From contig JAQGBZ010000271.1 in assembly GCA_034687125.1 (NCBI GenBank), forward strand, positions 1-64,000: 64,000 nt of DNA, in the 5' to 3' direction. The notes beneath the pieces were generated by a model, which made no database searches, had not been told where the DNA came from, and saw only the letters and a list, made by a program, of their open reading frames with translations. Positions 2,564 to 37,000 of this stretch are shown in pieces; position 1 is the first letter of the stretch, and each line of letters begins with the position of its first letter. The translations under genes and the position numbers were made by a program. The DNA is from Neelides folsomi. Taxonomy: Eukaryota; Arthropoda; Collembola; Neelipleona; Neelidae.

Positions 2564-5500
2564 ATGGAAGAAGAGACTCCACCGGTCAATCGTCCGTTCA
2601 GGATCCGTCGGCCTTCATCGAGCATCATCTCCAGTACGACACCATCAAATAATGTTTTTGCAGCTCCTTCGGCCCCACAAAGGTCAGGGGTGATGCGGAG
2701 GGATTTAGACGATGACGTTCAACCTTCATCCTCCTCGACCTCGTCATTTCCTCCGCCGTCGTCAGCTCGAGGTGGTCGATTCAGGAACCCACCGTCTCCA
2801 TTGGGATCTCCAGATTCGACCTTTTGGTCAGCTCCTTCCCCGGTCTCATACAGAGGACCAGCAACTCCCGGAGGTGTTTGTGCAGTCTCATCTTCCACAG
2901 CGGATGATTCATTTAATGAAGAAGCCCTTATCCCTCAACCACTCCCTGTTGAACCCGATCCACCTTCTCCACTTGATGTTCCTTCCTCCTCATTTTCTCC
3001 TCTTAGGAGTAAAATCAAAAAGGCATCGAGCTTTGAAAGGTTTTCGGCCCAACAATTGGCATCGGCCGCTCCCCAGCCACAATTACCGCCACCACCGCCA
3101 CCACCTCCGATCCCAATTGAGTTACCCACTTCCCCAGCACCAGGGCCAAGTCGGCTTATGTGGGAAGGTCAAAATGGAAGAAATTCCAATAATATTTCTT
3201 CTGGTTCCTCAACATCACACATTAAAATACCAAGTAAGAAGCTCGCTGCAAAACTAGCAAGCGTCTTCGAACAACAGGAGCAACAGCAAGCCTTTCGTCT
3301 TTCAGAAGCGATAAATGAACAGAACCAGCAGCAGCAAGTTCCTCTTGCGTTACAACCACCCTCAGTTTCATCAATTGTACAACAAGGGAGTCAGCAATTT
3401 TCTCAACAACAACACCAACAACTCATAGCTGAGGAAAATGAAAGTTTAATGAGAGAATTGTCCGAGAGCCCTCTCAACCTCACAGACAATTCAAGCTCAA
3501 ATGGTGCAAACGGTCCAGGGGGGATTTTACGGAATCCAACTGTCATCTCACAATCAACAAGGAATAAAAAGATTCCACTTACTCCCAAACAGAAGTTACT
3601 ACAAAGAATTCAAAGTGCTGGTGAACTCCTCTCACCTCTTTCACCTCCTCCGCACTCACCACCTTCAAGTGTGGTGGTTCAACAGCAACAGCTTCCTCAG
3701 CTCCCTGATAACCTCCAGAACAATTTGAGTAACAATGGAGTGGTTTTACACTCACCTCCACCCCAACAGTTGGAATATGGTTCTTACGAAGCGTTACTTC
3801 GACCGCCTCGTGACGACTTTGTTCAAGATCTCAAGGGAGTTGAGAGCGGAGACCCAAATGTTTCTGTTCTCTATGATGCTGATGCATATTCGTATTATTA
3901 TGGAAATATTCTTGCCGATGAAATATTTTCGTCGAGTTCGGGTGGCGGGTCATCATCACGGCAACTTCTCCTCATGAACCAGTCGACCTCTGCGCTCCAG
4001 GAGGCCGTCGACTCACTACAAGGACATCAGGTAGGATCTTCGACTTTACAAAGTTGCAATTTTCCTTCCTACTCTTATTATCAATTTATTCATCTTGATC
4101 GACTCTTTTTCCTTTTAACTCATTCAATATTGAGTCTTAATTAAAGTTTTTGTATATTAGTAACCATTTTCCCTATTTTACCACTAATTACTTAATGAAC
4201 CTCCTCATGGGCTAGGTTATGTTTATCTCATTGCCATTGCCAATATCTCTGTTGTTTCATGGTTAATTCGAAATGGCTGTTAAGCAATGTTGGTTAGGCA
4301 TGTGTTTTTATGTTAATTCAAACTATTAATATCAATGGAATAGGTATAATAGGAAGATTAGGTGTAAAAAGACCTTCTCACATTAATATCCAATTTAATT
4401 TCAATTCCTGCCAACATGGCTGCATGTAATATAGTAATACTTATAACTAAATACTTATAAGGGCAATTACGTAAATAGTATAGTTAATAATGGTATATAA
4501 TGTAAAATCAAATCGTTTATTGTTTAAATATAAAACATTTCAATTAGGCCAAGAGTTCCGAAATGAGGCTTTGTTAACCTTCACATTTATCTCATTGCGT
4601 TCAATATCAATTTTGTGAACTTGACATTTGATTTTAGTTACACTCCATGATTGAATTAATAATGTACTTCAGACCTCATTTCTTACATCCAATACAATTT
4701 TCAAAAAAAGTTAATTCATTTCTAAATATTTTTTAGGTTCTTCAAGGACATCCGCATGGCCATCTTGAATTTGTTCTTGGACTAAACGGAGAAGACCCAG
4801 GGCATGAAGGAGAAAGAAGAGACGATCAAGAACCTCCACATCCGCAATTCCTAGAACAAAATGAAGCTCAAAGAGCTGATAACATCTCAACACTTCGGAA
4901 TTTGTTAATGATGGAACCTCTTCGCACACACGATGACTCGTGGATAACTTCAGCCGACTATCAAAGAATGAGGGGAAATAATATGAGTTTAAATTCATGG
5001 GTCGGGGAATGGCCAAGACAATGGCAGCATGGACAAGAAGAGCAAGACGAAGTAATGGACATGTCTGTCATGGACGGATCAGATAAATCAAATAAACGGG
5101 GAAATCAATCGCATATGGAAGAAGAGGATTTGTCTGGATTGCCGCTTTTAAATTCAATGCAAATGCCATTGGATTTACAGCAGTTGAAAGGTCTCGATCG
5201 TCTTGAACATGCTGGGATGGAAGAGCAAAATAATCCAGTTGATCTCCACCATCACTATCGCCCAATCCCAATTGATGTAGACGAAGAGCCGGTGAATCTA
5301 ATGAGTGTGAATTTAGAATCAGATTTACAACACAACCAACTTTTAGAATCCCCCAAACAAGCGTCCTACTGTCTTTCAATAACAACGGCCCCTTCGTCCA
5401 ATAACGACAACTTTCCTATTGAAATTCAAAATGACAACATTGATGAAAGAAGACTAATCCGAGTAAAGAAGAATAAAGAGACGAGTATGGATCCACTTGT

Positions 5501-8189
5501 GCCACCACCCAAAAACCAAGTTGAACAAGCCGAACAACCAAATTTCATCCCGGATAAACCCGTTCAACCAAAATCCTTTGCTTCACTCCCAACTCCACTC
5601 AATTTAGTCCGAATGGGGAATGGAGGTTGGGCCGTGTTTACGAATAGAAATAAAACAATTCCGGCGAACACGAGATTTGGCCCTGTTGAAGGTCCATTAA
5701 AAAAAGCCTATGCTGAAGATTTGGAATCAACCAATGCAATTTATCCTTGCTTAGTAATGGTTGATAGCTCAAATATCCTTTGGCAATTGGACCGGACTGA
5801 TGATGAATTATGCAACTGGATGAAGTTTGTTCGGTTGGGAAAGAGTGCAAAGGAGCAGAATGGGATTATTTCTGAGAATGAAGGACTTCTATATTTTACA
5901 ACTTGCAAGGAAATCCCACCAAAGACTGAGTTACTTGTTGGCTATGGATTTGATTACGCTGCTCGTTATGGCTTACCATTTCATCCTCAACAGTCACAAG
6001 TGGCTCCGTCGGCCCAGCCGGATTCCGAGGCCCAAAGCCCAACTTCAAGCTCTAATGAGAAAATACTATTGAGTGGAGATTTGCCAAATATTGAGGCTTA
6101 TCTTTGTTTTGAATGTGATACTGATTACCCCACAGTGGAGGATCTCAATGATCATTTGGATAAAGACCACAAGGATGAAGAAGAAAGGAGACCTAAAAAG
6201 AAGAAAATTGTGAACAATCCAATTGCTGTTGTGTCCTCAAGCAGTGCGAAAGAAAATGTTGAAAGAAAAACGTTTTTATGTACTTTTTGCGGAGATACGT
6301 TTAGTTCCTTGGTTCTTCTTAAAAAACACGGAGAAATGGAACATGCCACTTTGAGAGAAACAAGAAACAATGTCAATGAAGAGGAAAGGGTTGAAGAAGA
6401 AGAACCACCTGTGAAAGTGAAATGTGTTCTTTGTTATAAAACATTTGCAACAAAGGATCGACTTGAACGGCACATGATTGTACACAGCGATGATGAATCC
6501 AAACCTCTTAAATGTAATTCATGTCCGAAGAGATTCCTTACTAACTCTGCTTTGGCTGGACATGTAAAAACTCATGCAGGTAAAATACTGTTTTTTATTA
6601 ATACAGGAATTATATTTTAATTATTGTGACCAATTAATTAAAATTATTCCTATTTTTTATTACAGAGGAAGGAAAATGTTTCGAATGTCCTATGTGTGAA
6701 TTTTCAACACAGCAACTTCTTCAACTCAAGGAACATGTCCAAACTCATAAAAATCGAGAAAACGGACTGTTCCATTGTCCTAGATGTTCAAAGGTAATTA
6801 CATTAGTACTATATTAATTACTGTACATTTAGCCACAATTGTTAGCATTTTAAAATATTTAATTTTGTCGAATTGCAATCTAAATATTTGTTGTTTTTGT
6901 AATAGAAATTCGTAATGTATTCAATGGTCCGGAAACATATTCGAGCTTTCCATGGCCCAAGACAGTTCGGTTGTGATACATGTCCAATGTCATTTCCAAC
7001 TTCTGACAAATTGAAGCTCCACCGATTGAAGCATTCCGATCATCGAGAGTTCCTATGTGCCGAATGTGGCAGACAATTCAAGAGGAAAGACAAACTTCGT
7101 GAGCACATGAAGCGAATGCATGAAAATAAGAAGAAAACCATCGAAATCACTTTAAGCTTAAAGGAGAAAAATGTGAAAAAATTTATACCAAAAGTTTCTC
7201 CAGAGGAATTTGAACGATTCATGTACAAATGTGGTGACTGCATGCTTGGGTTTAAACGACGAGGAATGCTAGTAAATCATTTAGCAAAGAGACATCCAGA
7301 CAAACCACCTCAAGCCGTTCCAGAACTCAACATGCCAATTCTTCGTCCAACAAGGAATTACTTTTGCCCTTATTGTGAGAGAGTTTACAAAAGCAGCAGC
7401 AAGAGAAAGGGGCATATTTTGAAGGGTCATCCTGGACAGGCCGTTCCTCCTCAACTACGAGGAAAGGATTTGAATAGTGGGGAAAAATCAGTTCGATCTG
7501 TTTCGGAAAGACAAAGCAATCGCATTAGCGAAAAAGAAAAGGACGATATGAAAGTTAATGAAATAAGAAGAGAGACAATTGTTGGGAAAGTTCATGCAAA
7601 TCCACATGCTTGCACTTGGTGCCATCGACAATATGCCACGAGGGCTAAATTGTTGCAACATCAAAGAAAGTCCCATTTGCATTTGATGCCTGTTGATATA
7701 CAGGTAATTTACATTAATTTTAAAAATTAAATTACTTAATATATGAGAATGTTGCGGTATCTAAACTAGTTTTTGATTAAATATAATTTTTATTAATTTC
7801 AATTATTATTATTATTTTAGATGCCACGAACTCAAAAAAATAACGTTGTTCGAAATGAACAATCCAATGAAGTTATTTCCTTATCTGTATCAAACGAAGC
7901 GACTTCTGTCATTACAATTCCAACAACTGGCTCTAGCACAATTACAACCATCACAACCACCAATTCACCTCCAGAAAGCGAAGAAGGAAGTGTAATTGGT
8001 TATCTTCTTACAACAGCGACCGTCGGAGCGAACGGCGAGCTGAGCAATTTGATCCCTGGAGAATTAGTCATGCTCCCTGTTCCCTCTCATCTCCAAAGCC
8101 CTTCATCCCAAAACAGCCTCCAGCAAAGTGTGAACAATGTGATCTCAAACCTCAATGTTGTCAATCCGATTCTCACTCAAAACGATTGA
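2564..8189 (+). CDS. PRDM10: PRDM10-like PR/SET domain zinc-finger transcription regulator (5 coding exons)
   Basis: Coding exons are 2564-4030, 4737-6579, 6666-6793, 6906-7703 and 7821-8189. The sum is 4605 nt, or 1534 aa plus stop, with matching phases throughout. Residues 1 to about 770 are low complexity, rich in Ser, Pro and Gln. A PR/SET domain at about 775-905 carries FGPVEGPL, LCNWMKFVR and ELLVGYGFDYAARYG. Eleven C2H2 fingers follow, starting near residues 945, 1003, 1051, 1081, 1106, 1137, 1167, 1196, 1253, 1300 and 1380. The stretches QFKRKDKLREHMKRMH, FKRRGMLVNHLAKRHPD and VYKSSSKRKGHILKGHPG are close to vertebrate PRDM10 as I remember it, so the family call is firm. PRDM10 is a nuclear DNA-binding regulator. 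The start is the first ATG after an in-frame TAG at 2552-2554, although extra 5' exons are possible. The protein is longer than vertebrate PRDM10 (about 1150 aa), mostly because of the N-terminus. The tail after the last finger is Ser/Thr/Ile-rich, as is usual in PRDM10. Confidence 0.93.
3061..3435 (+). repeat. Poly-Pro and poly-Gln coding low-complexity tracts in PRDM10 exon 1
   Basis: CCN runs near 3085-3112 encode a proline run. CAA/CAG runs at about 3268-3290, 3325-3340 and 3390-3425 encode glutamine clusters. They lie in the reading frame of PRDM10 and mix synonymous codons, so they are selected or tolerated protein tracts more than pure microsatellites. Confidence 0.7.
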
Positions 8190-10439: not shown

Positions 10440-12825
10440 ATGTATTCAAGTGAGAAGAAGAGTTACCCAACAAGACATGACCTAAGAGACATTGTAGAGG
10501 TCAAATGGAGATGTCCGATCAATGCCTTTGATGAAGTTTATCCCGGGATTTACATCGGGGATGCGTAAGTGATTATCTAGGTCTCCCTTACCCATTCATG
10601 ACCCAAATGTTATTTAAAGCACAAGGCATACTCTACATTCAACACCAATGTCTAGAATTTCTATATTACATAATGTCTATAGATAGTAATATAATATGTA
10701 GATCTTGCATAGAGATATAAACACGACGTGTTTAGTTCATTTAACAAGAACATGCATATAAGATCAGGGTACATGACATCATTAAAACTTTGTAAACCAG
10801 AGATTTAAAACACATTGACAGCAATTTCATCTCATCAGCTTCATCAATTCGATGATAGAAATTAGCTTTTTTCTTAAAAAATTGTATTTACTATTTATGT
10901 TACATTTGATTCTGTGCCAAATGTTCATTTTGCAAATGCATAGAGGTATATTATGTAACGTATGTATTTAACGTTTGTAATAATCTTGTACTTTTAAATA
11001 ACTTATTTACTTCAACAAGTATAACTTTTTAGTAAGGTTTTTTCCTTAGTACTTACCTTCAGTTTGTAAGTACAACGCACATATCTGTATTTGCTATTCA
11101 ATTTCTTTGTAAAATTGGTGCAATTTCTCATCATATTTTTTTGCTTGAAGTTGATCACTTTAAGCTTTGAGAACATACCATATTTATTGAGAGTATTTAA
11201 AATTAATCTTTTAAACCAGTACAAAAGATACGTGTAGGCACATAGTAGTGTGCGAATTAAAATTAAGAATAACAAGAAAATTGTAAATAGAAATTGTACA
11301 TTTAATTCGTTAGTGCAACAGCTTTGAGCCTTCGTACTCTTGCGGCCGAAGGAATCAGCCATGTATTGAATGCCGCCACTGGATGTGTCGATTGTCTCCA
11401 AAAGGATCCATGTGGTTGCTGCGTTCTCACACGTCCTTCTTATTACAATCCAAGTTCGATATCATTCTTTGGGATCTCGGCCGTTGACACGAGAGGATTT
11501 CAACTCTGGAGATTCTTTGAGGAAGCAACTGCTTTCATCCACTCTGCGCTTTCCTCTGGAGGTTCACCTTTAACACCCATCTTAGAAATCTAATCTTCGA
11601 GTTTTAAAACTGCTTTTTTGTACTTTATTACATTACTTCTCATATTTTGTTGAATGCGCTTATTTAATTAACAAATTAATCCCTCGAACATACCCACATT
11701 TATGTAGTAATACACTCAAATCATGATTTAATTAATTTTCCCATTCATCTGTGGGACTTATAAGTACCGAGATCAATCATTCATAAAATCATCTATGTGA
11801 TGAGGAAAGAAACAGACAGTGAGCTTTTGCTTCTTCTTTGCTTCCAGACGAACCGCCAAATGCACCATGACACTTGAAAATGAGAAAATAACTCATGTAC
11901 TTAATGCTGCTCTTGGATCAGATGAATGCATGTACGTCGACACTTCGGAAGACTTTTATAATAAGAAGAAATTTAAATGTGAGTTCCTTGGGATTCCAGC
12001 AATGGATATTATGGCTTACCAACTTCATCACTTCTTCAAAGGAACTTCGGATTTCATCGACTCTGCTTTAAAATCCAATGGTCTTTAATACAAAATTGCA
12101 CTCCTTCCTTATACCTATACTAAAAAGACAAAATAACTACTTTTAGCATTTTATTTGCAGTAGAATTTCTTTAAAATCTCATTTGCTCTTTATTTTCTTA
12201 ATTACTACTAGAGATTAGAAATATTGTTAATGTAATAGAGACGCTTTTATTAGTATAATCGATAACTGATTAAATATAAGTATATTATAATTTAGCATTA
12301 ACGTTGAAAATATAATGTTGATTTTAATTTAATTCTTTAACAGGGAAAGTTCTGGTTCACTGCCGTGAAGGTAAATAAATATTAAATTCATTTGAATCCC
12401 TGATCTTATTTCGTAGTATTTATTTGAACACCCGTTGCACGTACAAATCTGTGAATTGCATAAATATTTTCTTTTCAAACTAGGCATCAGCAGATCCGCT
12501 ACATTGGTCCTTGCATATTTAATGATGAGAAAAAATATGTCGGCAGTAGATGCAGTTAAATTAGTGAGGTACTCAGAAGATTAGAAATCTAATTGTATTT
12601 TAATCAAGGTCATATGGATTAATTAGCGTATTAACTTGTTTGTTTACTCTTTTTGCAGAAGCAAGAGAGAAATATTTCCCAATGAAGGCTTTCTCGGTAA
12701 TAAGAATCTAAATATCACGAGAAAATGTGTTAGTATGAAATATGTTCTTATTTAACGTGTTTTTTATTTACATCATTTTAGAACAACTCTGCGATTTGGA
12801 CATTCGACTCCGACAGCGACGATGA
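10440..12825 (+). CDS. DUSP3: DUSP3/VHR-like dual-specificity phosphatase with alternative second coding exons
   Basis: Coding exons are 10440-10564, then either 11314-11561 (2a) or 11848-12080 (2b), then 12344-12370, 12484-12568, 12659-12696 and 12782-12825. The product is 188 aa with 2a or 183 aa with 2b; human DUSP3 has 185. The signature HCREGISRS is split between a 27-nt exon (with the catalytic Cys) and the next exon. The general-acid Asp is present in both alternative exons (GISAVDT in 2a, GIPAMDI in 2b). VYPGIYIGDA, HVLNAA, LAYLMMRK and REIFPNEGFLEQLCDLDIRL line up with DUSP3. The family dephosphorylates phosphotyrosine and phosphothreonine on substrates such as MAP kinases, in the cytosol or nucleus. 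The ATG at 10440 gives the length normal for the family; no stop lies just upstream, so it is not proven. The donors after 2a and 2b (gttcac, gtcttt) are weak and need transcript support. Confidence 0.9.
11314..11561 (+). CDS. DUSP3: DUSP3 alternative exon 2a (Cys-rich version)
   Basis: The exon encodes about 82 residues from ATALSLRTLAAEG to SALSS. It enters in phase 2 and leaves in phase 1. It contains HVLNAA and the general-acid Asp in GISAVDT. The loop after HVLNAA is five residues longer than in exon 2b and holds CVDCLQKDPCGCC, five Cys in 13 residues, which I do not recall in DUSP3 of other animals. The acceptor is attcgttag and the donor is a weak gttcac. If the donor is not used, translation would run to a stop at 11591-11593 without the catalytic Cys. 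Confidence 0.75.
11848..12080 (+). CDS. DUSP3: DUSP3 alternative exon 2b
   Basis: A second copy of the same protein segment, about 77 residues, with the same entry phase 2 and exit phase 1. The lead-in RTAKCTMTLENEK before ITHVLNAA is the same length as in exon 2a and in human DUSP3. VDTSEDFYNKKKF resembles the DUSP3 loop more closely than exon 2a does. The acceptor follows a strong pyrimidine tract (ttcttctttgcttccag). The donor (gtcttt) is weak, and reading through it meets a stop almost at once. Confidence 0.78.
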
Positions 12826-15568: not shown

Positions 15569-18500
15569 CAAACGCCATCGTCACCATTGTTTCGTCCTGG
15601 CTTTCGACGCGATTCCTCCCCAATGATGATTTCCCTACCATATCTATGCAGAAATTGGCGAGGGACCGCTAATAGTTTCCCTCTCCATCGAGAGGATGGG
15701 CGAATACCTTGTGGAGGCGCCGTTCATTATCTCAATCGGGGTCACTCGAACGGATTCATCAACACGGCCGCTATGGATATCACCGACAAGGTAATTCACT
15801 CACTTTCAGTATTTTTCACAAATCCCAAATATTTGTTCATCTGTCGTCACAGGCCATGGTCATCTTCCCTCTTCAGAAAATATTTAACAATTTAGTTCAG
15901 ACGGACTCTCTTATCGGCGAACCATTTTATCTTTAGTGTGATTTATGCTCACAAAACTGGCATAAATGAATCTTCGGTAATTCTATTCTCGTGGTTGAAT
16001 TTGAATTTAAATATAGTCAATTTATATGTATTACCTGAACCCACAAAGAATCGTTTTTATAAGGGGGAGTATGCTTTTGAGCTATCTCATTTCCTTATCA
16101 GCTCCCAATGAATATTTGTGAACATATTTTAAACACAACATTGTAATGCGTTGTAAAAAAGTTAAATTCATTTCATGTAAATTAGATACCGTGTGATCGT
16201 CCCATGCGTGTTGTATGTATTTAGTATTTAGTGAATCGATGATTGATTAATCATATTTTTGTAAATGACATCGACCTGCAAGTTTAATATATTTGTATAA
16301 AAGCGATAAAGAGTCTTGTGATGGGTTTCATTTCATGTGACAACCCCACTTTCATCATTTCATTTATTTATATTAAACTTATCGAATAAGGGATTTTAAA
16401 TAGTCATTAAGCTCTTTTAAGTAACTAAATAGTTCTTTAATTTCATTAAATAATCAACCCATTATATAAAATACTATTTTAAATGAATAAAATTAATTGT
16501 TTTGAAATCATGACGGCTTCCAATTGTTCCAACTTACTACATAATGCTCATTTCAGTTAGAGATAATATAATTCAAACTTTATCATTTCTTTACCATTAT
16601 CTTAAATTAAGATTCTTCAAGAGCATTCAATATTATATTTTATCACAGGTCAAAATCCATTTTGTAATTTAATTTTGTCAACATATATAATATGTAGATG
16701 CTTCATATTTTCATTAAGAGTTTAATTATTTTTCAAGCTAATTGATTCCTAATAATGCAAACTAATACTTGATCTTAATTTGATAGGAAAGAGATGCATA
16801 TTACACCGAAGACGATCTCTCTTCCTACTCAACTGCCGAAGAAAGTCATTTTGATGAAGACGAGGAAATGCAGGTTGGTCACGAAGGGATGGGAGGAGGT
16901 CGGGAGAGTCAAAGGAGCTGCTATGAAGAATGCATCCCTGAAGGCCCCTTCTCCTTCAAAATACTCCAGAGCATATTTGATCGTCTCAAGGACAATATTT
17001 CCTCGGATGAATGTGTAAGATCATTGTTAAATTTAATCAAATGACTACTTGTTATTCATAATACGAGATTATGCGTATGAGACTTTTTTTTACTGGACCA
17101 ACTTGTTTTTTTAGGAAGATTTGCTAGACGTTCTTGGAGTGTCTCAAAATAGAGAAGACTTCCAATGGTCACTTCATCAATTAGGAGGATTCAATGCTTT
17201 ATTATTTCTTTATGCCAGAGTAAGCAATCTAATCTATTTACATGCTGAATATAAAAATAATACAATATAAATAAATAAATACTCATATTGTATGTATCAT
17301 TACAGTACAAATACATAGAACAAAGGCATTTTTATTTAACGATATAAAATAACAATAAAATGTAATTGTGTATTAATTTTTTAATAGGTTGTGGAAATTA
17401 GTGACGATGATGAAGTTCAGTCAAAGGGTCTTTCGCTCGTCCTCAGTCAATTAAAAAATCATTCAAAGCTAACTGACATTCGCAAAGATGATCAATATGA
17501 TTTGATACGATTTGTCCTGAACTCTAAAAAGTCGGCATTCGGCTTCAAAACCTTTATCGTTTTAATCAATCACTGTCTCTACCCAAGCGGTCATAAAATC
17601 CTTGACTATGAGCTTATGGAAAAATGTCTCCTTCTCTCTTTCCGGTCTCTGTTAAAAAAGAGAGTAAGCGAATCTGATGGGGCCACTGGGAGACGAAGTT
17701 TATTCGAATGCTTTCTTTCTGTAATTTTGGATCTCCTTGTCGAAGTCAACGAACACCGGGATTGGAACGTGGATCTTTTAAAAGATCATCATTTTGAAGA
17801 ATCGCTATTAGCAATTTGCACTCATGCCGCTACTGAACCCCGTTTAACTTCTCATTTAGATGAATCCGACGCTGTGAGATTATCTGCTCTAGTGAAAGAC
17901 ATTGTAAGTGAATTGATGGCCCCGCCAGATGCCCAAGTGGCAGCTTCAATAGTCAAATATGCCCTTTGTCCACTAATACCCAAAGAGTTGCCCCGAGTTC
18001 CAGCAAAGACCGAAGCCTATTTTCTCTACCAAGACGGGAGAGAGAAATCGGAAGAAGGGGAAGAAGTGACCGAAACAAGTGAAAACTCACAGAAGGAAGA
18101 GGAAGAAATTGAAGTGGGAGATGATCGGATTAATGAAGCTGATATTCCAGAACTTGTTGGAATTTACACATCGGTGACGAGGAATAAAAACCACAATAAT
18201 AATAATTCCGGATGTGGTGACGGGAACATGAGGAATATTCAAGATGGTTCAGCTAAAAGTTTCACATGTGCTTTCCGAGAATCGTTGCTGGAAGGAGCGA
18301 TGGGAATTCTTTTAAATTCATTAGCAATCCTTTCGGATGACTCGTTCCATACTGTTTTAAGTCCACATCTCACTCATCACATCCTCGTTTCCCTCACGTC
18401 GCACGGAAATCTTTTGATCAAGAATCTAAGTTTGAAACTCCTCTCCGCATTCTTGTCAAGGATCAGAAGCCCCGCTCTAACTGACTTCTTAACTAATCAA

Positions 18501-21500
18501 GGATTCTTCCTTACGAGTTTGTACGTGCAAGCGAGCTCGGAATTGTCCAATTTAATCCTAAATATTTGCAAAGGATATGGTCCTATATCTTTTCCTTTGG
18601 TTCTTTCTTTGCTTCATTCTCCGTCCGTTTCATCGAATCTAGTTGATTGGATTCAAGAGGTGAGTTAATGCTAATAAACTAATAACAGACCAATCTGTTC
18701 TATTTTCAAATAATTTAAATATTGCAGATATATCAGTCTACAATTCTACAATATATTTTTATATTCAATAATTTCGTTAAAAAAATTTTTATTTGCATTA
18801 TAATTTTATTATTTTTGCAGGATGCAGCCGGTCTTGTTCCAGCATTAATTTCAATGGGTCTTCTTCCAAGTTTAATTAATTCCAACAAAGTGAACGGTCC
18901 AGTCAATTCCAGACACGTCCAAAGTCTTTTATCAACAGTTACTCGATTTTGCACATTGAACCCGAAGGAAGAATTGTGGAAAGCATTATTTTGCCCAGCT
19001 CTGGAATCCGCTCCACAAACATCCAATTTGATTGCCAAGATGTTTCAAGAGTCCTTAGAAATTCTTCGTGACGAGAAAAAAGAAATATTTAAAAAGTCGG
19101 ATTTTACATCGAGGGTTTTATGGCTACTTGAACGTGGAAGCGTCAGTTCTAAATTTGGACTTGAGTATGACAAATGGCTGTTAAATTTCTACATAAATGA
19201 AGTCATCAATGTTGAAAATTGTGATAATGAATTTTGGAGATATTTTGTTCGAAAACAACGTAAAAGACTTTATGAACTTTTCGCAATCTTTTTATGCCGT
19301 ATATTTTCTCCTAACAAGGGAGATAAAAAATTTTTACATGAAGTTCTGCGGTTCCTTTTACATCCCAATGTCCCTCCACTTTCATTATGGTTACCAAAAG
19401 TGATGAGGAGTGATGAGAAAATCGAAAGAGTTTTCACGGCTTTCGTTCGCGTCTTTCTGTCCAACGCTCTTGAAAGAAATGGAGGAACTGATGGAAGAAT
19501 GAGGAGTCACAGTTTCCAATCTGTTATTACATCCCCTGATGGAAACTTCCTCTTTAGACTTTCAATTCCTCAAGAACCGGATTTAATGCTCGATGACACA
19601 ACCAGCAGGGAGAAGTTTGAGGAAATTCTTATATGTGCTGGCATGCTTTCCCCATCAAATGGATTTTCTTCCTCTTTTACTCCAAACTTTGGAAATGCTT
19701 TTAAAATTAATCTCCTTGAATCCCCAACAATCAGTGGGGTGTCTTACCAAGAACTGAGACAATGTCAAAGCTGTCTTGAGAAAATGAAATCAAACATTTT
19801 GACTTACGGGGAGAAATCAAAAGGAGAGCCGATTTTCCAAAGAAAGTTTTTTGCTGCACCACACAAAATGATCATTACTTCAAATACGTCTTATTTTGAG
19901 AATGTTTTTGACGCTGTGATTAAATACTCAATGGACGTTTTGGAAGTGGTTACGAAAGTGAGGACAAGACAGGAAATTGAAATTGAGCAGAAGATTTCCA
20001 ATTCAGAAGAGAACAGCAAAGCGAGGAGAAATTGGAGAAAGATTTTTGATCAAATGAGCCACCCAAGAGCTCCCTGGCATTTTCCTTCACAATATCCGAG
20101 GTATGCTCATTTAAATATCTTTAATTTCTCTTTAAAATTATGAATAAAACTGGATGTTTAAAAAATATTGAATTTACAGATTTTCATCTTTGGACCAAAG
20201 CGAAGGACCAGGGAGAGTGAGAATTCGATTGAGGAAAGAAATTCTCAATGTTCATCCAAGATTCATACTTCCACAAAGGCAAAAAGGTGAGAATTTAATT
20301 TAAATGTCATTTATTATTTTTTAATAATTTTTATATAAACCTTGATTCACTAAAATTATTAGTTTTGTAGAATCTCGAATCTTTGTATGATTATTACTCA
20401 GTATAAAGGGTCAAGGGTGGACTTAATAAAGTCTTTTAAAATAACCACAAATAACTTTACACACTTTACTCCAATGTTAATGATTAATGATAAACTTAAA
20501 TACAACAATGGTTTGTATTTTAGAAATTGAAGAACAGCAAAGAACACCTTTAGATTATTTATTTAACAACGCAGAAGAAGAACGTGCAGATCCAGTAAAT
20601 CAATCAGATATTCAATTCATGCGATTTTGCACTCGTGTCCTTCCAGGAGAAGAATTCTTTGGCGAAGTTCTCTTTAATAGCACCACTCTCCATTTCATTC
20701 CTGAAATCCGACGGAGTTGCGAGCAAATTGAAGTATCAAGAAAGTCAATTTTCAAAATTCTTAAGAGAAGATACAATTTAGAAGACAGGGCAGTCGAAGT
20801 GTTTGTGGATGGTCAAAGCTTCCTATTTGTGTTTCAAAGACGAGAAGACCGAGAAGAGTTTATGCACACTCTTATCATACCTGGACCTGATGGAAGTCGA
20901 ACTCAGAGTGACACATCACTTGCTGCTACGACCTCGAGATGGTTGAAGGGACGAATGTCAAATTTCGACTATTTAATGTTTATTAACACAGCAGCTGGAC
21001 GAACTTATAGCGATCTCATGCAATATCCCGTGTTTCCATTCGTTCTCTCTAATTATGATTCGTCAAAGTTGGATCTCAATTCTCCCGATTCCTTTAGAGA
21101 TTTGAGAAGGCCAATGGCTATTCAAGATCCCTCTAAAGAAAAACATTTTACAGCTACTTACAATGTAAGACCAAATCCAAAATATATGTATTTATTACTC
21201 ATCTCTCTTTTAGATTCCCAACTTTACCTAAAAAGTAACATTAATCAAATCTTGACAAATTATTCATTTAAATTATAATTTCAGTACTTGAAACGAGAGT
21301 GTGACTCCACACCTTTCCATTATGGTTCACATTACTCGAATTCTGGAATAGTTCTTCATTTTCTTGTGAGACTTCCACCTTATACGCAGCAATTTTTAAA
21401 ATATCAAGGTAATCAAAACTATTTTTTCCTAAATAATGTTGATCGGAATTTGTTGTATAGTATTTTAATAATATCTATACCCAAACGAAATTTCTACTAA

Positions 21501-23637
21501 AAATTAGAAATGGAATTTATTTTAATGGAATATAAATATTTTTTAGATGGAAGTTTTGATTTACCAGACAGAAGCTTTCACAGCGTGGAGACAACATGGA
21601 GACTTGCATCCAAAGATTCAAATACCGATTTTAAAGAAGCGATCCCCGAATATTACTATTTACCCGAATTTTTTAAAAATCTTCAAAGCTTCGATTTAGG
21701 AATTCGACAAAACGGTGTTCGCGTAAACGACGTTATTTTGCCTCCATGGGCTAAGGAAAATCCAAGACTTTTTACCCTCATTAATAGACAAGTAAGAATG
21801 CTTAATCAATTCTAATTGACAACTAAATGTCTTTTCAAAATAAAGTCTAATGAATACTTAATTACAAATTATTAGGCATTAGAAAGCAATGAAGTGCGAA
21901 AATATATGGCAGACTGGATTGATTTGATATTCGGTTTCAAACAAACCGGGAAGCCTGCTATTGCTTCAATGAACGTTTTTCATCCATCTGTAAGTACTAC
22001 ACAATTGTATCCGTCATATCCGTCTATCCATTCACCTATTGAAATTATTTAAATAGGTATTAATGTAATTAACATGATCATTTCTAGACCTACGAAGGGT
22101 TTGAAGTTGAAGGAGTTAGCGATGAATTGGTAAGAAGAGCCAGAAAAGCCATGGTGTCAACGTACGGGCAAACGCCAAAGCAGCTCTTTTTCTACCCGCA
22201 CCCGAAGGGGAGTCCCAACCCCGGAGAGAAATGTGACGTGGAAGTATTGGACACAGTATGTGGGCTCCGCTGGGGCTCCTTCGTCGGCTCACCTGCTTCT
22301 CCTGACCTCATCGTCATCAGCATGAGAGAATACAAAGAATCAGTCAAGCTGTTTGAAACTCAATCCAGAATTGTTTTCTGGCCGGAGAGGACGCTCATCC
22401 TCAGTGATAGCGTCGAAGGTTCTTGGGATCCAAGCGGAATTCGCATTCGATCCAACATTGTTTATCTCTGTCTTGGGGATGAAGTAAGTCTTACAATTAA
22501 TTTACAATTGATTTAAGAGAATTACCTTGTTCGCACCTTTTATGTATTTTTTTACTTTTATTCAGATAACTTTTTGTCGCGGAACTGACACATCATTGTG
22601 GGTTGGACATCAGTCAGGGAAAATTTCAGTATTAAAACTCTCACCAAATTGGGACAGAATTGTGGAATCTATTGATTTGGTCGGACATTACGAACCAATA
22701 AGGAAAATTTGCATTAATCAAGAATTCTCCATCGCTATTTCATGTTCTGGAGAAAACTACGTAATTATTTGGGACCTTAATACGTAAGTTGAGGATTAAC
22801 TAGTTATAAAGCAAATAACTTTCATTTCATTCGGAATATGAAAATATTTATATGTAAGATATATTAACATTTGTATGTTATTTGTGATTAAAATGATTTT
22901 ATTAATTCCTAGATTTGGCTACTTCAATCATATTGAAGTTGCTGCGCGAATTGATGATTTGTATTCATCAAGATCTACTGGAGAGATTGCATTGCTAACT
23001 AAAGAAGTAAACGAAGTGAGTTTATTCACAATCAACGGATTTCTCGTTGGAACCATCAAACCCGAAGAAAAAGTAGAATCCGTTTGTATTTCAAGTCTTG
23101 ATCCAGGAAGGAACGTTAACGTTTTAGCACTTGGTTGTGATTATGGACTTGTCAGGTAATTAAAATAAATATTATAACTATAATATTAATAGTTTTAAAA
23201 AAACGTTAAACATTATTAAGAAATTCAATTCATGAATTGCAATAATTTAATTTATATTGTTTTGTAGAATATATTCAACGTGGGACATGAAATTTTTAAA
23301 TGAAATAAAAGCTTTTCCATTATCAATTCTTGGAGTTAAAAGGTATGTAAACGCTTTAGATAATCAATTTAAAAACATAGTCTAATTTTTATAATAATCA
23401 GAATTAAAATTAATTATGCAATCAAACATCAAGGTCTTCTCAACTAATATAAAATAAGATTAACTTTTAATAAATATTAATGTTTTTAAATTAAATAGCA
23501 TTCGGTATTCGCGAGACGGGAGACGACTTTACTGCTTAGGCAAATCACACGAACATTCCATAAGCATGGCGTTTCAACTTCCTTCACTCTTCTCATTAGG
23601 AAATACTCGTGCAACATCTTCAGCCTCTTCTAATTGA
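15569..23637 (+). CDS. LYST: LYST (lysosomal-trafficking regulator, fly mauve) homologue, short form: PH-like, BEACH and WD40 regions
   Basis: Exons are 15569-15790, 16787-17014, 17115-17219, 17388-18659, 18821-20100, 20180-20286, 20524-21164, 21285-21408, 21547-21791, 21876-21989, 22088-22483, 22566-22783, 22913-23155, 23268-23342 and 23499-23637. All phases match, giving about 1802 codons. Residues 1 to about 1070 look helical, with an acidic Glu/Asp-rich stretch. A PH-like segment lies at about 1095-1195. The BEACH domain (about 1208-1500) includes [34 protein letters not shown] and [11 protein letters not shown]-terminal WD-type repeats include CIIWDLN-like VIIWDLNT and [22 protein letters not shown] and the STWD ending point to LYST more than to neurobeachin, WDFY3 or NSMAF. 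LYST controls size and traffic of lysosome-related organelles. Vertebrate and fly proteins are about 3500-3800 aa, so roughly half is missing. An in-frame TAG at 15566-15568 limits the first exon. Translation may start at ATG 15623, or 15569 may follow an acceptor (ttgtag). The 5' end is uncertain; the rest is secure. Confidence 0.9.
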
Positions 23638-28079: not shown

Positions 28080-31000
28080 ATGGGGACGGATGAAGGAGAA
28101 ACGCTGAAAATGTCACAACCTCAGTCGAGAGAAACGCTGAGGCAGCTAATTGCCCAATGGAATGCCAACCGACTAGATCTTTTTGAAATTTCCGAGCCCA
28201 ACGAGGTATGAATTCTTGTTCTTATTTATGAACACATAATTATAATTCATAAACTTTTACATCAACATTAAATATTGCAGAATAATATTAATAAATGGAA
28301 GGATTGTACGATTGTGACTTTGTGACTCAAGCCATTGTTTAATTTTACAGGAAGGAGATTTTCATGGCGTTATGCGATTCTACTTTCAAGAAGCAGGGGC
28401 GAAGGTGGCGACCAAGTGCATTCGGGTCGCGTCCTCTGCAAGTGCAAAAGCAGTCATTGAGACCCTTGTTGAGAAATTCCGTCCTGACATGAGAATGTTG
28501 TCCATTCCTCTCTACGCTCTTTACGAGATCCACGAGAACGGGGAAGAAAGACGGCTGGAGGAACATGAACGGCCGTTGTTGGTCCAACTCAACTGGCATT
28601 CGGATGATCGAGAAGGGCGGTTCCTGCTTAGGAGGCTTGATGACCAAGGCCGTTACAACTTCACGGTACACATCCTCATCCTCTCTTTTGATGAGCTGAT
28701 AATATAACTCGTAATATCCTTTTTCATTCACTAGACGAACAAAATGCAAGACATTCCCTTTGGAGATAGTTTCAAGAGGAAGCTGAGCAAAAGGGAGAAG
28801 AAGCAACTTAAAAAATTACAAGAAAAAACAAAGGCGGAAGCCGCCAGTGTTGCTGAAAAACTTTATACAGGTAAAGTCAAATAAAATATTTAATTTACTT
28901 ATTTTACTAACAAACATTTTTAAATAATTGTGGTTTAATCTTTATTTACCCGACAAAAAATCTAAAATCTACAACGATATTGATTAGAAAAATTGTCTTT
29001 CGAAATATTTAGTATTTTTGATTTAAATTAAGCAAACTCTTTGTACCTTTATTGCTTTATTTTATTATTAATTAAAGAAATAAGTTTAAAAATTTAGATT
29101 TCCTTTGTAATTTTTTCCTCGTCCCGTAGGTTCCATTTTGTAGATTAAAAAACTTATTGTTCCGATTCGCTATGTAAAGGCGAAGTTCCCTGAATGACAC
29201 GAATTAATTAGAGGAGGAAGTTGAGGGAGTGAATGTAATTAAGTGAGAGTGATCTATGGAGGAATAATTACCTCTCATTGATTCCTTAATGGATATTTTG
29301 AGAATCACGAGGTTCCCCTTTCTCGCAAATTCATTTGCATGTTGCAATTTACCAACTCAAATTTGTTGGTATTACTTTAAAGCTCCACGGCTCAGAGGGC
29401 TCGCTCTCTATTAAATGAGTTTTAGATGAGGATGAGACATTCAAATCGAATTAGTTCGGTTTGGGTGGAGGCCCACCCCGCTAATCGTCACGGCTTAAAT
29501 GAGGGCCAGCTCCACTAGGCTGACCAAACGAAACTAAGCACACTTCCTATTAACTTAATAAATGGAAATCCTCACAGCAAATGAACATTCAGAATCAATG
29601 AATGAGAAACCCATTAAATGTACAGCAGTTCCATTTAACCTATCACGTGCAATTCCTCTTTTTTCTTCAAATTCAGCCCATAGGGTTCACAATTCTAAAG
29701 TTTAAATACATACTAAATAGCATGTGTCTGTCCATTTATAATGTGACAGTAATTAATATTTACTTGATTGTTCTTGTGTCAGGAGTATTTATTTGAACGC
29801 CATAAACTGTCAAATTAGCAAATCCCGTGTAAAACAAATGTCTGGCGCAACTGAAAATGATCCTAATGAATTGTTAATTTTTGATTTACAGAGGTTCCAG
29901 AAACAACATTCACAAGGTCAATTTCAAACCCAGAGGCTGTAATGCGTCGCAGACGACAACAGAAACTTGAAAAGAAGCTTGCTCAATTCCGTTCACGAGA
30001 CGGCGGCCCAGACACCGGCGGAACCTTGAAGATTTACGGAGAATCCCTCTGTCGAGACGTGCCTTACAAGACGCTTTTGCTCTCTGTCAATGACACGGCG
30101 GTGTATGTTGTGAAAGAAATGCTGGCTAAATACGCCCTTACTAACTATGACCCACAGCACTACTGCCTTGTGCAGGTATGGAATTGATCTTAAAACTCAA
30201 TTATAATATTTTAAGGAAATAATAACATTGAACTCCCGAACTCCCCCTTAAGTACACTTTATTTACAAGATGTATGGGTTGGTGTTAACATTTTCAAATG
30301 CTCGATTTCAATTATTTAAGTAGGAAAACTCCTTATGACATTTTGTGCCAGAAACCTCGAAAGATGTTCAAAGCTTAAAATTTGGCGTTCAGCACGAAGG
30401 AGTTGGTTGTCATGATAGCTTGATGGGTTTTACACGTTGATTTGAATTGACAGGAAGGCTAGTTTTGAGGCTCGACGAGTTCTTTTGAACTTTTAATTTT
30501 TTGATATCCTGCTGAGATTCCTATTTCCTACCATATCATTACTATGATTGCCGAAGATGAGTCAAACGTGAAGACCATTTAATAATATGGTAGTTGACAG
30601 TCGATCTAAAAAGTTTGACGCGATGTTATTTGAAGGCAATTTAATAGAATTGGAAGTTTAAGGAGTAAAACAAATAAATGAAGAAAATTCAAAAGTCAAA
30701 CTATAAGAAACACAGGAAAAGAGCTAACATAAAAAGGTTTTAAGATAAGAATGAATGAGAAAAGGGAATTAAGGAAATTTCCAGTTTTTCAAAAAGGACA
30801 TGACAGACAATGAGAATTGCAAGATTATTATAAGCTCAAGATGAAAGTTGTGCCATGCGGGTATTAATTAACTTGTGATGGAGCTTTACGGGAATTTAGA
30901 TCAAATGGCAATTTGGGTAATGAAGCCCCAAGTTTCCTTTCTTCCCTTTAAACATAATTTCTTCTTATTTTCTCATGAAAAGGTAATGACTGTTGTGTGC

Positions 31001-34000
31001 GCAGGTATGCGAGGGAGAAGGCGAGTACATCCTCGACGACGACGAGTCCCCGCTTTCCATCCTTATGAACCAGCCTTCGAGTCGTGGTGAGTCTCAGTGT
31101 GAATTTTGTTGAGGGAAAAGAGCCGGTCTCTTTCCCTTCTCGCTTTCTTCCGCTCTCTTCGCATTCGCATAATAGTGATATTTAAGACACGTCGAATTAA
31201 TATTGGTTAAAAGTATTCCATTATAAATTGTAAATATGATGGGCCTTTGGTCATTCTCGACAAGGAGGCGAAACTGTCAATATGAAGTTGTTCTCGGTAA
31301 TTAATTCATTTCCTTCTTTCTATTTTTTTATTTTATAGCAATTTTTTAGACACGTACTATTTAATATCTTATAAGTATCATAAGGATAAATACTATCTTA
31401 TCATACTATACTATCATAGTACATAGTTGTAAACTCTAAGAAAGACTTTTCATGTTATTTTCAATTTAGATTTTGTCAAGTGTTTTTTCCCCAAGACAGA
31501 ATAAATTGTTTTTTATTATGGCTTTATAAGAGTTTAAAAGGTTTGGGTGGAGGACTGATTGAGAGCAAACAGACGAAATGCATCAATTTAAATCAGCAAA
31601 GAGAGAGGATCGTATAAAACACATTTCGCTTTTTCAATATTTATGAGAGAGTTTATTGTAAGTAAAATAAATGTAAGTTGTCGGGTAAAATGTAAGATGA
31701 GAGATTCATCTTATGTGTTCGCAAAAGAGAAAAGTAAAAATTGGAACCATAAAATTTGGTCAGGAGGTAAAGTGAAGGTTAGGTTATGTTAAAGTCTTGT
31801 TAGCCAAAGTGGAGTTTTCCACATAAGGACGATTAGTCCAACGGCTTTGTTTATCTTTTTTATGGAGAATCTCCTCTAACTGAAAGGGGGTATAAATCCT
31901 TGGCATAAAAGTAATGAATTCTCTCCGACCTTTTATCTCCCTTCCTTCCTTTAAATAATAGACGGTCATGTTGTGAATTTTATATATTTATATAAAAGAG
32001 AGCAAATGTGGATGTCGGATCAAATCTTCGTGATCTCCCTTTATGAGAAGATATTGAACATGGGAAAGTAATTTTATCATAATAATATTTAGTGAGTGAG
32101 AGAAAGCACTACAATAATATGATACATTGTAGCTATATTATGTTGAGAACGAAGAATTTCAATGTACCTTGCAATAATGTACAATTCTTACTCCAAAATT
32201 TTCTCACGCCCTTTTATCTATATATTTAAGATTTGAACAATTTTCAATTTTTACTAGATATTTAATAATAACGATCATCTTTAAACTAATACTTAATAAT
32301 ATTTAATAGTTTGTCATAATATCATTATGTATTATTATTTTTTATTCCAAGAATTCTCCATAAATTACATATTTATGATGAATATGAAATAAGTAGCCTG
32401 CTCATGTCATTGATATACTAAGGGAAAGTCGAGTTTAGTATAAAGGTCCGTCCATGTAAGATCTCGTTTACATGCAAAAGAGATGAAAGGACCATTTTGA
32501 AATTGAAATGATGGGATGAGCCTCCGTTTCGTGTGTATAAAAGATTAAAATTGCTTGTCAATATTTTCTTAGAATTTCAAAATTCTCCCTATCTTTCAAG
32601 GGTTTTGAGCTTTTGAGGAAAGTGAAGGTCTTAGGGGGAAGTGAAGGGGGATTTGAGGAACGCGTAGTTGGCTTTTAACTTTTCGTGATTGAAAGGTCGT
32701 AAGGGATGAAGATGTGTTTAATATGGGGAAGCACGTCTCGTGACATTTGACACTTTAAGTGTGTGAAGGAGATTCCAGGGTAGAAAAATAAAGAGATAAA
32801 GGAGGAGTTAAAAGGATTTACTCATTTCAATTTTCTTCCTTGTCTCGGATCTCATTTATTTTGTCTCCCTACTAGCTCCTCATTAGGAGTAGGATCTATA
32901 GTGAAAAGGAAATGGCGGGGGCGAGGGGCGGATTTCCCCCAACTTTTCCTTTTATTCAATAATAATAGTAGGATGAAGGTTGATCAAATTACTTACCCGA
33001 TCTGTTTTCACAAGGGAATCATGGGATATAGTACAAACAATACAAAGAACATGTCTAGATGTAAGAGTAATGGGGTACAATAACAAAAGGCATGCGAGAA
33101 GACAAATGAATTTTTGCAATAATATTAGTTCAAACCAACGTGATTTTTGTTACATGATGATTAATTTTATTTTATTTTATTTGCTATGTAGGATCTATCA
33201 TGTTCCATGTTCGACGCCGCCCTCCTGATTTCCATCCGAGAAAGAGGAAGAAGAAGCCTGGGAGACGGACAGGAGACGAAGATATTGGAAGCGGCTATAG
33301 AGGAAGCTATGATGGACAAATTGAACCGCTGCTTATTGAGCTTCTTCCAGGTAAAGGAATTTAAGAAATCCTTAAATTTAAAATTTAAACCCATTGTGTA
33401 GTTGGTTATTCATATTCAAATTGTCCTGTATGTAATGGATACTTCATTTTCAAACTCAAGTATGGTTCTTTTTTTAAGGGATACTTGTTAAAATGAATGG
33501 GGGACAGGATTAGGAATCTTTTCTAAGGACATTTTTTCACTTTGTGGGATCTTTTCATAGAATTAATTTTTAAAGCTTTTCACCAGTTTCTTAGAATTTT
33601 TTCAAGGATATTTTTAAGGTAAGTTATAAAATAGAAGGTTTAGGATTTAAAATAGATGAGAACTGTGGGGAGTCTAAAATGGGGGGATATTTGGAAGATT
33701 AGAAGAGAAATGAATAGAATTTGACATTTTCAATGTGGGTAGATCAAACAAAAATTAGATTTTTTTGTATTTAAAATCGCATACTTGGAATGGAAAGTGT
33801 ATCAAATTATAATAAAAGGTGAAGGGTGTTCTAGGATGCGTAGTTGGTTTGTAAGTGGAGGAAAACTTTCAATGAAATGCCTAAAGAGCTTATTTAATAT
33901 TTAAGAGAAATAAGGTAAATACTTGGAAAATGTATGATCATAGAAAAATGCATGACGGAATAGAGAGCTTTCAGTTAAAAGTCATTTTAATACTATAACG

Positions 34001-37000
34001 TACACTATAAAGTATGTATCTGCATGTAAACCGCAAGAAGCGGATGTCTTGTTAAGCCTCTTATATCTCGAACTTTCACGGATAAATGTTTAAAATTGTT
34101 GATGAAGTGAATTTGGGGGTTTTTGAAGCCCTTAACTTTCAGAGTAAATGAAAGTTTTTTGATTGATGAATGAATAAGGGAAGATTTTTCATTAGAGAAA
34201 TAATTTATTTAAATGTTGCACAAGTTTTGAAAAGTTTTTAATTATTTTATTTTAATCATATTATGATAAATACACTCGTGACTGTCATTGAAAGAAGTTG
34301 AATGGAATTAAATTATCTATTTTGAATTCGAAGTACCAAATTCATAGTTCAACGATTCGGTATTCGGTTATTGGCTATGTTCATTTTGAATATTTAAAAA
34401 AAATGTTTATCAAAATTATAAAAGGCGTTTAATTTTTTAAATTTAAGTAATTATTTAAATCACTTTCCATTTATTTCATAGATGAATGCGGAATTGAGAA
34501 TTATCCATATAAATATTACGAGATGTATTTATCCTAAACTTACATTTATACTCGCAAATAACACATTTGTGTTCAATATAAATATAAGTAATCACAAAAT
34601 CCTTAGATTTAATTTGGCATGAAAATTGGGTTTTTGGGATAAAAGTCAAGTTGACAGAAAGTTGAGAACTAAAGTGTCTCGAAGGCTGATGAGCCTGATG
34701 ACATAATGACAAGTCCTTTGTGGATTCGCGTCGTCATTCGAGACTTATTGAGTTGTTCTTTCCACTTTGATGAGTACCGTGTGTTTTATGGATTTGTTCT
34801 ATTTCTGACTTTTCCATCAATTATTCATTTCCAGTTCTTCCTTTCTTTATTTCTGTAAGGGAATATAATTTTTATTTTTAGTATTATCGTCTATTATATT
34901 CGTTATAAGGTCATAACCAGAATATGTAATATGGTGCGAGTAAGCGAGATTATTATTTGGAACTTCTTCCACTCAAATTTGTATAATGTTCGTTATTAAC
35001 CACACAACTCGCCCACGCTTTTCATTTCTACCTGAAATAACAAATAAATGATGTGAACAAAAGGATGAACAAAAGGCTCGAAAAGAGATTTGACATTTCG
35101 AACCGGATTGAAAGAGTTTGTGAATGTTTTATGTAGGAAATCAATATCGTTGTGATTTCTTTAGAAAAAAGTTTGTAAATGCGATTCAATTTTGTTTGTT
35201 TCATTTGTTTGTATGTTCAATCAATTTGAGTTTTGTAATTTTTTCATGAATTCATTTGCGGTAGACCTAACTTTTCTGGGATTTGATATAACTGGACAAA
35301 TAATTCTTTCGGTTAAATATGCAATTCTCAAAGGGAGGTTAATAAAGAAAAATTCCTTACTTCTTTTCATCATTTAAATGGAACTCCCACAGTTTCTTTC
35401 ATTTTTTAATGGATTTCTACATCTAATAATTGTGAACTCTCTTTTTGTCATTTGGTGGTTTGATGCCACAATAAAGAAATCGAGATATTTAAATGGATAG
35501 CAAATTGTTATATTTACTGGTTCCTTTTTATTCATTTGCAAATTGTGAATTTTAGGTTAGGTAAGGTTATCGATAATGTAACCAAATATTTATGTAGAAT
35601 TTTTATAATAATTTTAATTGCATGATGGATAAGATTACCATTGGGCAAGACAAGTAATTTATGTTATTCAAAGAATTCAAGTGCACTTTCACAACGTACC
35701 TAATCACAATCACTTAAAGTGATGTTTTGAAGAAAGAGCTCACCTTTTATGACATTGCTCGACTTATTGATTTCGTGTCCACTTTCGATAAGACTGATAA
35801 TAACATTTAAGCAAAATATTCGAATCCTTTAGTTTATGAATAATTTATGCTTAAATAGTTTCAGCAACACTTAAAGAGTTAAACTTCATTAATATCATTG
35901 ACATTGCGAATCTTGAATCTAATTAAGAATTAGAGTAGAGTCTCCAATGTGCTCACTCAATGTCAGTCTAATTGATTTTATTTGGGAAAGAGGAATGTGG
36001 GGAGAATTGGATTGTTGTACAGCCCTTTGATGTTCAACAGTTCATTTTGAATGTTACAGGAAGGGTAAACGATTTTGGTATCCAGATGTTGGTTAAAGGC
36101 TTTTACATTAAAGTTCTTATCGGACCATTTGTTTAATGTCGGGTTGAACGTCATGATGTTCGTTTTAAGTTTTTTCCTCGCCTTTTACAGATCGAAGTGA
36201 GTTTATCCGAGCGCATCAACTTCCATTCAATTAATTTGTTTTCTTTAACATCTTAATTTCATTTCATTCTCACTTTTGTTTATTAAATTTCCCCATTTAC
36301 ATTCAGTCTAATTAACAAAGCTCGCTTCCTAGAAATCTATCAATTAGTATGGAATGAAAAGCATTTAGGATAAACAAAATATAAACAAAATATCCTTAAT
36401 TTAAGAGTATAAACAATAGAAATATTATTTACTGATAGAAATTAGCTCATTGGAAGAACGATGTGACTATCATTTTACTTTTACCCATTGTCAGTAAAAA
36501 AATATTTTTCGATGCATTGTTAATGCATTTGGTAGATGTATTGTACTATATCTGATACCAATAGAAGTAAGGATTTGACTATACTAAATAAATGTGTGAA
36601 TGTTAAGAACGTGGATATGCCTGTGGTTGTAATTGAGAGAAGTGATTTTTAACAGAAACAGAATGGTATTAATTCCCTATGAATCAAGCAATGAATGAAG
36701 AGTGATACGATGAGGGATGAATTTTCATTTTAGTTTAGGATTATAAATGGAAGGATCATCATATTTAATTTTGCAAGTTGAGTCATTTCATTTGTTAAAT
36801 TGAAATTTTGGGAGGAATTTAATTATTTTGAAATATTTAATAGATGGAAGTGAAACTGGGCGAAGGATCACACTGGAGTCTGACGTAACAGAAGTTGGGA
36901 GCGAATGGGCGGGATTACAATTGGCGGGTCTTCGACCTCGTCACTGTGTCATTGCTCATACTGATGGGATTGTGACGGTCACTCCGTCGTCAAGAGACTC

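Follow-up and report, generated by a model that had tools for sequence, protein, structure and literature searches.

Tandem copies of the second coding exon in a DUSP3/VHR-type phosphatase gene of Neelides folsomi, a probable mutually exclusive pair

Gene content and exon structure

The window is the whole stretch of DNA analyzed here, that is, 64,000 nt of Neelides folsomi (Collembola, Neelidae) corresponding to positions 1 to 64,000 of the forward strand of contig JAQGBZ010000271.1 (GenBank assembly GCA_034687125.1). A phosphatase gene of the DUSP3/VHR type is located at positions 10440-12825 on the + strand, and its second coding exon is present as two tandem copies, named 2a and 2b (Table 1). 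All introns of the gene model are of the GT-AG type. The segment treated in the earlier note as a single exon 3 is made up of four exons (exons 3 to 6 of Table 1), and the catalytic loop is interrupted by an intron (HCREG/ISRS, the slash marking the junction).

Table 1. Exons of the phosphatase gene and the intron that separates the two copies of exon 2 (window positions; the slash in donor sites marks the exon/intron boundary)
Feature	Position	Strand	Content
Coding exon 1	10440..10564	+	ATG at 10440; ends ...YIGDA in phase 2; donor GTAAGT; aligned with VHR ...EVTPRIYVGNA
Alternative exon 2a (248 nt)	11314..11561	+	HVLNAA strand, Cys-rich loop CVDCLQKDPCGCC, general-acid Asp (D100 of the 188-aa isoform), then helix; donor GAG/GTTCAC
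Intron between 2a and 2b (286 nt)	11562..11847	+	No AATAAA or ATTAAA, no U12-like donor
Alternative exon 2b (233 nt)	11848..12080	+	Same segment as 2a, with a loop length nearer to that of VHR; general-acid Asp (D95 of the 183-aa isoform); donor ATG/GTCTTT
Exon 3, common to both isoforms	12344..12370	+	GKVLVHCREG, with the catalytic Cys
Exon 4, common to both isoforms	12484..12568	+	ISRSATLVLAYLMM..., with the catalytic-loop Arg
Exon 5, common to both isoforms	12659..12696	+	SKREIFPNEGFL
Exon 6, last coding exon, common to both isoforms	12782..12825	+	EQLCDLDIRLRQRR and the stop codon

Exons other than 2a and 2b occur in one copy each in the window. When the window was searched by tblastn with both isoforms and with human VHR, only the known exons were detected above noise; neither a second exon 1, nor a second HCREG exon, nor any further hidden exon copy was found. 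Searches of the species' own genome covered 75.1 Mb in 840 contigs. When that genome was searched with 2a and with 2b, no match beyond these two copies was obtained (two of two scored candidates). The shared tail produced six matches among eight scored candidates; five of these were outside the window and were 39-48% identical.

The region upstream of the phosphatase gene contains, at 4737-7730, a PRDM-like gene that encodes a PR domain and several zinc fingers of the C2H2 type. Downstream, BEACH and PH_BEACH domains at 20484-22516 mark a BEACH-domain gene, with a weak continuation of the BEACH match, below the cut-off, at 22088-22513; the long frames at 17388-20143, upstream of these domains, are without a Pfam match and may belong to the same gene. 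Two RA domains followed by an FHA domain are encoded at 28318-37247, an order that we take to be that of afadin/canoe. Exons for a class II glutamine amidotransferase domain at 62627-63729 are probably the start of a gene that leaves the window, presumably for glutamate synthase. The genome as a whole gave at least 39 matches for Chitin_bind_4, a cuticle family, and at least three for 7tm_6, an odorant receptor family.

Reading frame, splice sites and candidate signals for exclusivity

Exons 2a and 2b both enter in phase 2 and leave in phase 1, and the length of each is 2 modulo 3. The isoform with 2a has 188 aa and that with 2b has 183 aa. Joining of 2a to 2b leads to a TGA after 131 aa (the 8th codon, counting the junction codon), with four junctions downstream and 360 nt before the last of them; skipping of both copies leads to a TGA after 49 aa (the 9th codon, counted in the same way), with three junctions downstream and 125 nt before the last. 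The frame is kept by single inclusion only. The frame that continues past the donor is 11 codons long for 2a and three for 2b, with both the split codon and the stop included in the count.

The coordinates, phases, lengths and stops proposed for the two copies in the earlier note were reproduced, as were the two whole proteins obtained from exon 1, either copy and the remaining exons, the TGA within about eight codons of 2b upon double inclusion and the TGA nine codons on upon double skipping. The same note had concluded that only either/or forms can be made. This holds for whole proteins but not for RNAs, as no feature was seen that would block splicing of 2a to 2b. The reading frame is apparently the only visible enforcer of exclusivity. 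Such an arrangement is common, because 377 of the 629 human clusters described in PMC5740500 have lengths not divisible by three; joining reads were reported there for 83 of those 377.

The donors following both copies had also been described as weak, and splicing as possibly regulated for that reason. This was not upheld, as weak-looking donors are common in this genome. For reference, the positions of introns were derived from the continuity of profile matches in nine stretches of the same genome with chaperonin and kinesin genes; these stretches belong to larger sets of 25 and 55 exon matches. From 28 neighbouring match pairs, three with a gap of more than 12 profile positions were left out beforehand; among the 25 that were examined, two had no solution and two were dropped (both from one stretch, where a 6-nt shift was needed), which left 21 introns, 16 exact and five with a 3- or 6-nt shift. 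Both dropped donors had a non-consensus base (C) at position +3. Donors were scored by a leave-one-out procedure over positions -3 to -1 and +3 to +6.

Of the 21 reference donors, 11 scored lower than that of 2a and five lower than that of 2b; among the 16 placed exactly, the numbers were 10 and two, and this last count speaks against a full dismissal of the weak-donor argument. For comparison, the exon 1 donor, GTAAGT, scored above only four of the 21, because of its exonic bases, and the exon 5 donor above two, that is, lower than the 2b donor. One reference donor (GAG/GTTCAAA) was nearly identical to that of 2a (GAG/GTTCACC), and the base at +3 in the reference introns was A in 11, T in eight and G and C in one each. 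On an ad hoc pyrimidine scale, the acceptors of 2a and 2b scored 8.0 and 11.0, respectively, against 3.8-10.9 for the reference, which is biased upward because the best acceptor was taken among the closest fits when there were several solutions. Based on these comparisons with 21 introns of the same genome, the splice sites of 2a are average, and in 2b a strong acceptor is combined with a donor that scores low but does not fall outside the reference range. The correction matters for reading this genome, since donors that are weak by the usual consensus are common in it.

The donors of this genome are loose in general (GTTTGA, GTTTAC, GTTCAA and similar), far from the usual GTRAGT. A gene that we take to be Slingshot-like, at about position 1842 of another stretch, seems to use GAG/GTTTTT, as read by eye. 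An ab initio intron finder based on codon usage produced 20 mostly spurious introns and was discarded.

Signals that could impose exclusive splicing were sought from the sequence only. Neither a U12-like donor nor a steric block was found, the 286-nt spacer being too long for steric exclusion. Pairing between introns, as selector and docking sites, received no support: the duplex energies of five intron pairs were like those of dinucleotide shuffles (40 for each pair), with 12 to 28 of the 40 shuffles reaching the observed energy. The inverted repeats listed at the locus are AT-rich and short. A signal of this kind (pairing introns, a U12/U2 clash or a steric block) is not required of all known pairs. 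Its absence is usual, because in the counts given in PMC5740500 a U12 clash was present in five and a possible steric block in 57 of the 629 human clusters.

Homology and protein consequences of exons 2a and 2b

Exons 2a and 2b share 34 of 76 aligned residues (45% identity), and their local alignment score of 126 compares with a mean of 21.8 for shuffled sequences (sd 4.0, maximum 46, 2000 shuffles). Differences were found at the first, second and third positions of 31, 30 and 54 of the 76 codons, respectively (Fisher P 1.2e-5), in a comparison that is pairwise and cannot prove present-day constraint on both copies. Different codons are used for 21 of the 34 identical residues. As judged from this divergence, the duplication is either old or affects a fast-evolving segment, and it is not datable from the pair because third positions differ in 54 of the 76 codons. 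A recent duplication or an assembly error was ruled out because the copies are only 45% identical.

In a three-way alignment with human VHR (74 columns) there were 29 identities between 2a and VHR, 30 between 2b and VHR and 33 between 2a and 2b, and the matches to VHR private to one copy fell in seven columns for 2a and in eight for 2b. By this alignment the two copies appear about equally close to VHR, and neither looks relaxed relative to the other. A random stretch of 83 codons was open in 0.16% of 20000 simulations with intron composition and in about 2% with exon composition.

The full isoforms with 2a and 2b scored 111.2 and 112.1 bits against the DSPc family (Pfam; cut-off 33.5); the single exons scored 19.5 (2a) and 20.4 (2b) bits, with E below 0.001 yet under the cut-off. 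The best PDB match was DUSP3 for both isoforms (134.3 bits with 2a and 138.4 bits with 2b; 132.1 and 138.4 bits for 1vhr itself), and was again DUSP3 when either exon was searched with GKVLVHCREG attached. DUPD1, DUSP26 and DUSP13 followed, in an order that differed by isoform. By sequence, the DUSP3 group is therefore nearest for both predicted isoforms in this ranking among solved structures.

The gene product resembles human DUSP3 (VHR, PDB 1vhr) in the HCX5RS loop, the general-acid Asp and the HVLNAA segment, and its swapped exon is less conserved (29-30 of 74 residues identical to VHR) than its shared tail (39 of 61). Aligned with VHR, the loop and the Asp correspond to C131, R137 and D100 in the 188-aa isoform and to C126, R132 and D95 in the 183-aa isoform; the catalytic roles of these residues are assumed from work on VHR. 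The Cys is contributed by exon 3 and the Arg by exon 4, both shared; the Asp belongs to the swapped part and is present in both copies. The largest difference between 2a and 2b is in the loop after HVLNAA, where 2a has seven residues absent from 2b and from VHR. Five cysteines are present in the swapped segment of 2a (positions 66, 69, 75, 77 and 78). The anatomy and homology described here support the earlier proposals that the tandem exons code for the same segment of a DUSP3-like phosphatase, and that the Cys loop is common to both forms with the general-acid Asp in the swapped part.

Since the general-acid Asp is kept and the Cys and Arg are shared, both forms are probably active phosphatases that would differ in their substrate-facing surface. 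Retention of the catalytic residue in both copies fits the general finding, as summarized in PMC9741552, that exon copies of this type tend to retain their predicted binding residues (80.6%).

Interpretation and comparison with known systems

The locus is best read, with a probability of about 0.8, as a single gene for an atypical dual-specificity phosphatase of the DUSP3/VHR type in which an old tandem duplication of the second coding exon would be used as a homologous mutually exclusive pair. The two copies are intact, homologous, phase-matched and flanked by GT-AG sites. The criteria described for WebScipio are a length difference within 20 aa, the same frame and a score of at least 15% (PMC3228551); exons 2a and 2b are 5 aa apart, have GT-AG sites and the same phases, and reach 29-30% of the self-score in our own normalisation, which places them inside all of these limits. 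On the fly X chromosome, such features are shared by 90 of 16180 exons (0.56%) that are not exclusively spliced (PMC3228551).

Under the mutually exclusive reading, both 2a and 2b would be used, and ordinary trans-acting regulation, or else competition of one acceptor with the other, would decide which copy is included. Transcripts with both copies or with neither would carry premature stops and would undergo nonsense-mediated decay, or would give fragments without the catalytic Cys; decay is expected by the general rule because the stops lie upstream of junctions. The two isoforms would both be enzymatically active and would share the same phosphatase chemistry, differing in the surface that faces the substrate. 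Against this reading stand the negative outcome of the search for a signal that would enforce exclusivity at splicing, the low-scoring donor of 2b, and the early stops behind both donors together with the ATTAAA past 2b, which would allow for a terminal exon.

In another reading, one copy is productive and the other is mainly a regulatory (poison or off-switch) exon, whose joined or terminal forms would lower the output of the gene. The joined and skipped forms are indeed truncated and expected to decay, no feature was found that would block joining of 2a to 2b, and joining reads are reported for some of the human clusters of frame-shifting length (the 83 of 377 noted above; PMC5740500). However, a purely regulatory exon would have no need of a conserved protein sequence, and in 2a as in 2b the fold motifs and the general-acid Asp are preserved and the distance to VHR is the same, so that we consider this reading quite unlikely. 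The use of 2a or 2b as a terminal exon, or of two promoters that would produce two overlapping genes in the manner of the DUSP13 locus, is very unlikely. Neither exon 1 nor the HCREG exon has a second copy above noise in the window, the two donors lie at the same homologous point with VHR-like sequence restored across the junction, and the catalytic Cys would be missing from a terminal form. In favour of such alternative ends, both donors are followed by short read-through frames, and 29 of 94 look-alike exons counted in PMC3228551 belonged to promoter (21) or poly(A) (8) clusters. An ATTAAA is found at 12269, 189 nt past 2b and within the intron that follows it, whereas neither AATAAA nor ATTAAA occurs in the 286 nt after 2a.

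That one copy has dropped out of splicing and persists as a relic is highly improbable. Third positions have diverged in 54 of 76 codons, and over such a distance a copy without use would be expected to lose its frame, its splice sites or its motifs; a frame of 83 codons would be open by chance in only 0.16 to 2% of the simulations, and the distances to VHR are symmetric. A relic would agree with the longer, Cys-rich loop of 2a, unlike that of VHR, and with the low-scoring donor of 2b.

The proposed exclusive pair resembles the homologous mutually exclusive exons (tandem duplicated exon substitution events) described for human and fly in PMC9741552, PMC5740500 and PMC7954323: the exons are tandem, homologous and internal, with equal phases, their lengths are not divisible by three and double inclusion shifts the frame, and a catalytic residue is present in both copies. 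It differs from the sets of PMC7954323 in size (77-82 aa versus a median of 36 aa) and in identity (45% versus a mean of 67%), and from the catalogued pairs in being known from genomic sequence alone. According to PMC9741552, membrane, ion-transport and muscle functions are over-represented among the genes that carry exon pairs of this type. The arrangement is of a known kind, ordinary in kind and uncommon in place.

Within the same phosphatase group, the DUSP13 locus (DUSP13A/MDSP and DUSP13B/TMDP) also has tandem duplicated coding exons, and DUSP13 is counted among the 236 human tandem duplicated exon events of PMC9741552. In contrast to the present gene, in which only the middle exon is doubled, the DUSP13 event spans the whole protein, with exons 1-3 and 7-9 encoding separate enzymes as described in PMC11274236. 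Table 1 of PMC6264519 gives Drosophila CG7378 and Anopheles AGAP008228 as the genes that correspond to DUSP13 in fly and mosquito, and theirs is possibly the family of this gene. No report of an internal exclusive exon pair in DUSP3-type genes was found in a limited search of titles and the opening parts of abstracts, with the supplement on fly events of PMC9741552 outside its scope.

As proposed, the pair would swap about 80 residues of a small one-domain phosphatase, the general-acid segment included, with the nucleophile loop shared. It would be a compact natural experiment on how the general-acid part of the fold sets substrate choice, and, in parallel with the tandem doubling in human DUSP13, a candidate for convergence within one phosphatase group. 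The exon swap could perhaps be nearly as old as the split between arthropods and vertebrates, given that the copies share 33 of 74 residues with each other and 29-30 with human VHR, with one DUSP3-type gene giving two phosphatases that share the catalytic loop and differ in their general-acid surfaces, and with the five-cysteine loop of 2a possibly gating activity by redox or metal; this extended scenario is speculative, and we regard it as rather unlikely. If it were true, this lineage would have achieved by splicing what vertebrates did by gene duplication within the DUSP3 group (DUSP3, 13, 26, DUPD1).

A TGCATG, presumably an Rbfox-type motif, is found inside exon 2b (11927-11932). It is the only one in 10440-12825 and could be due to chance.
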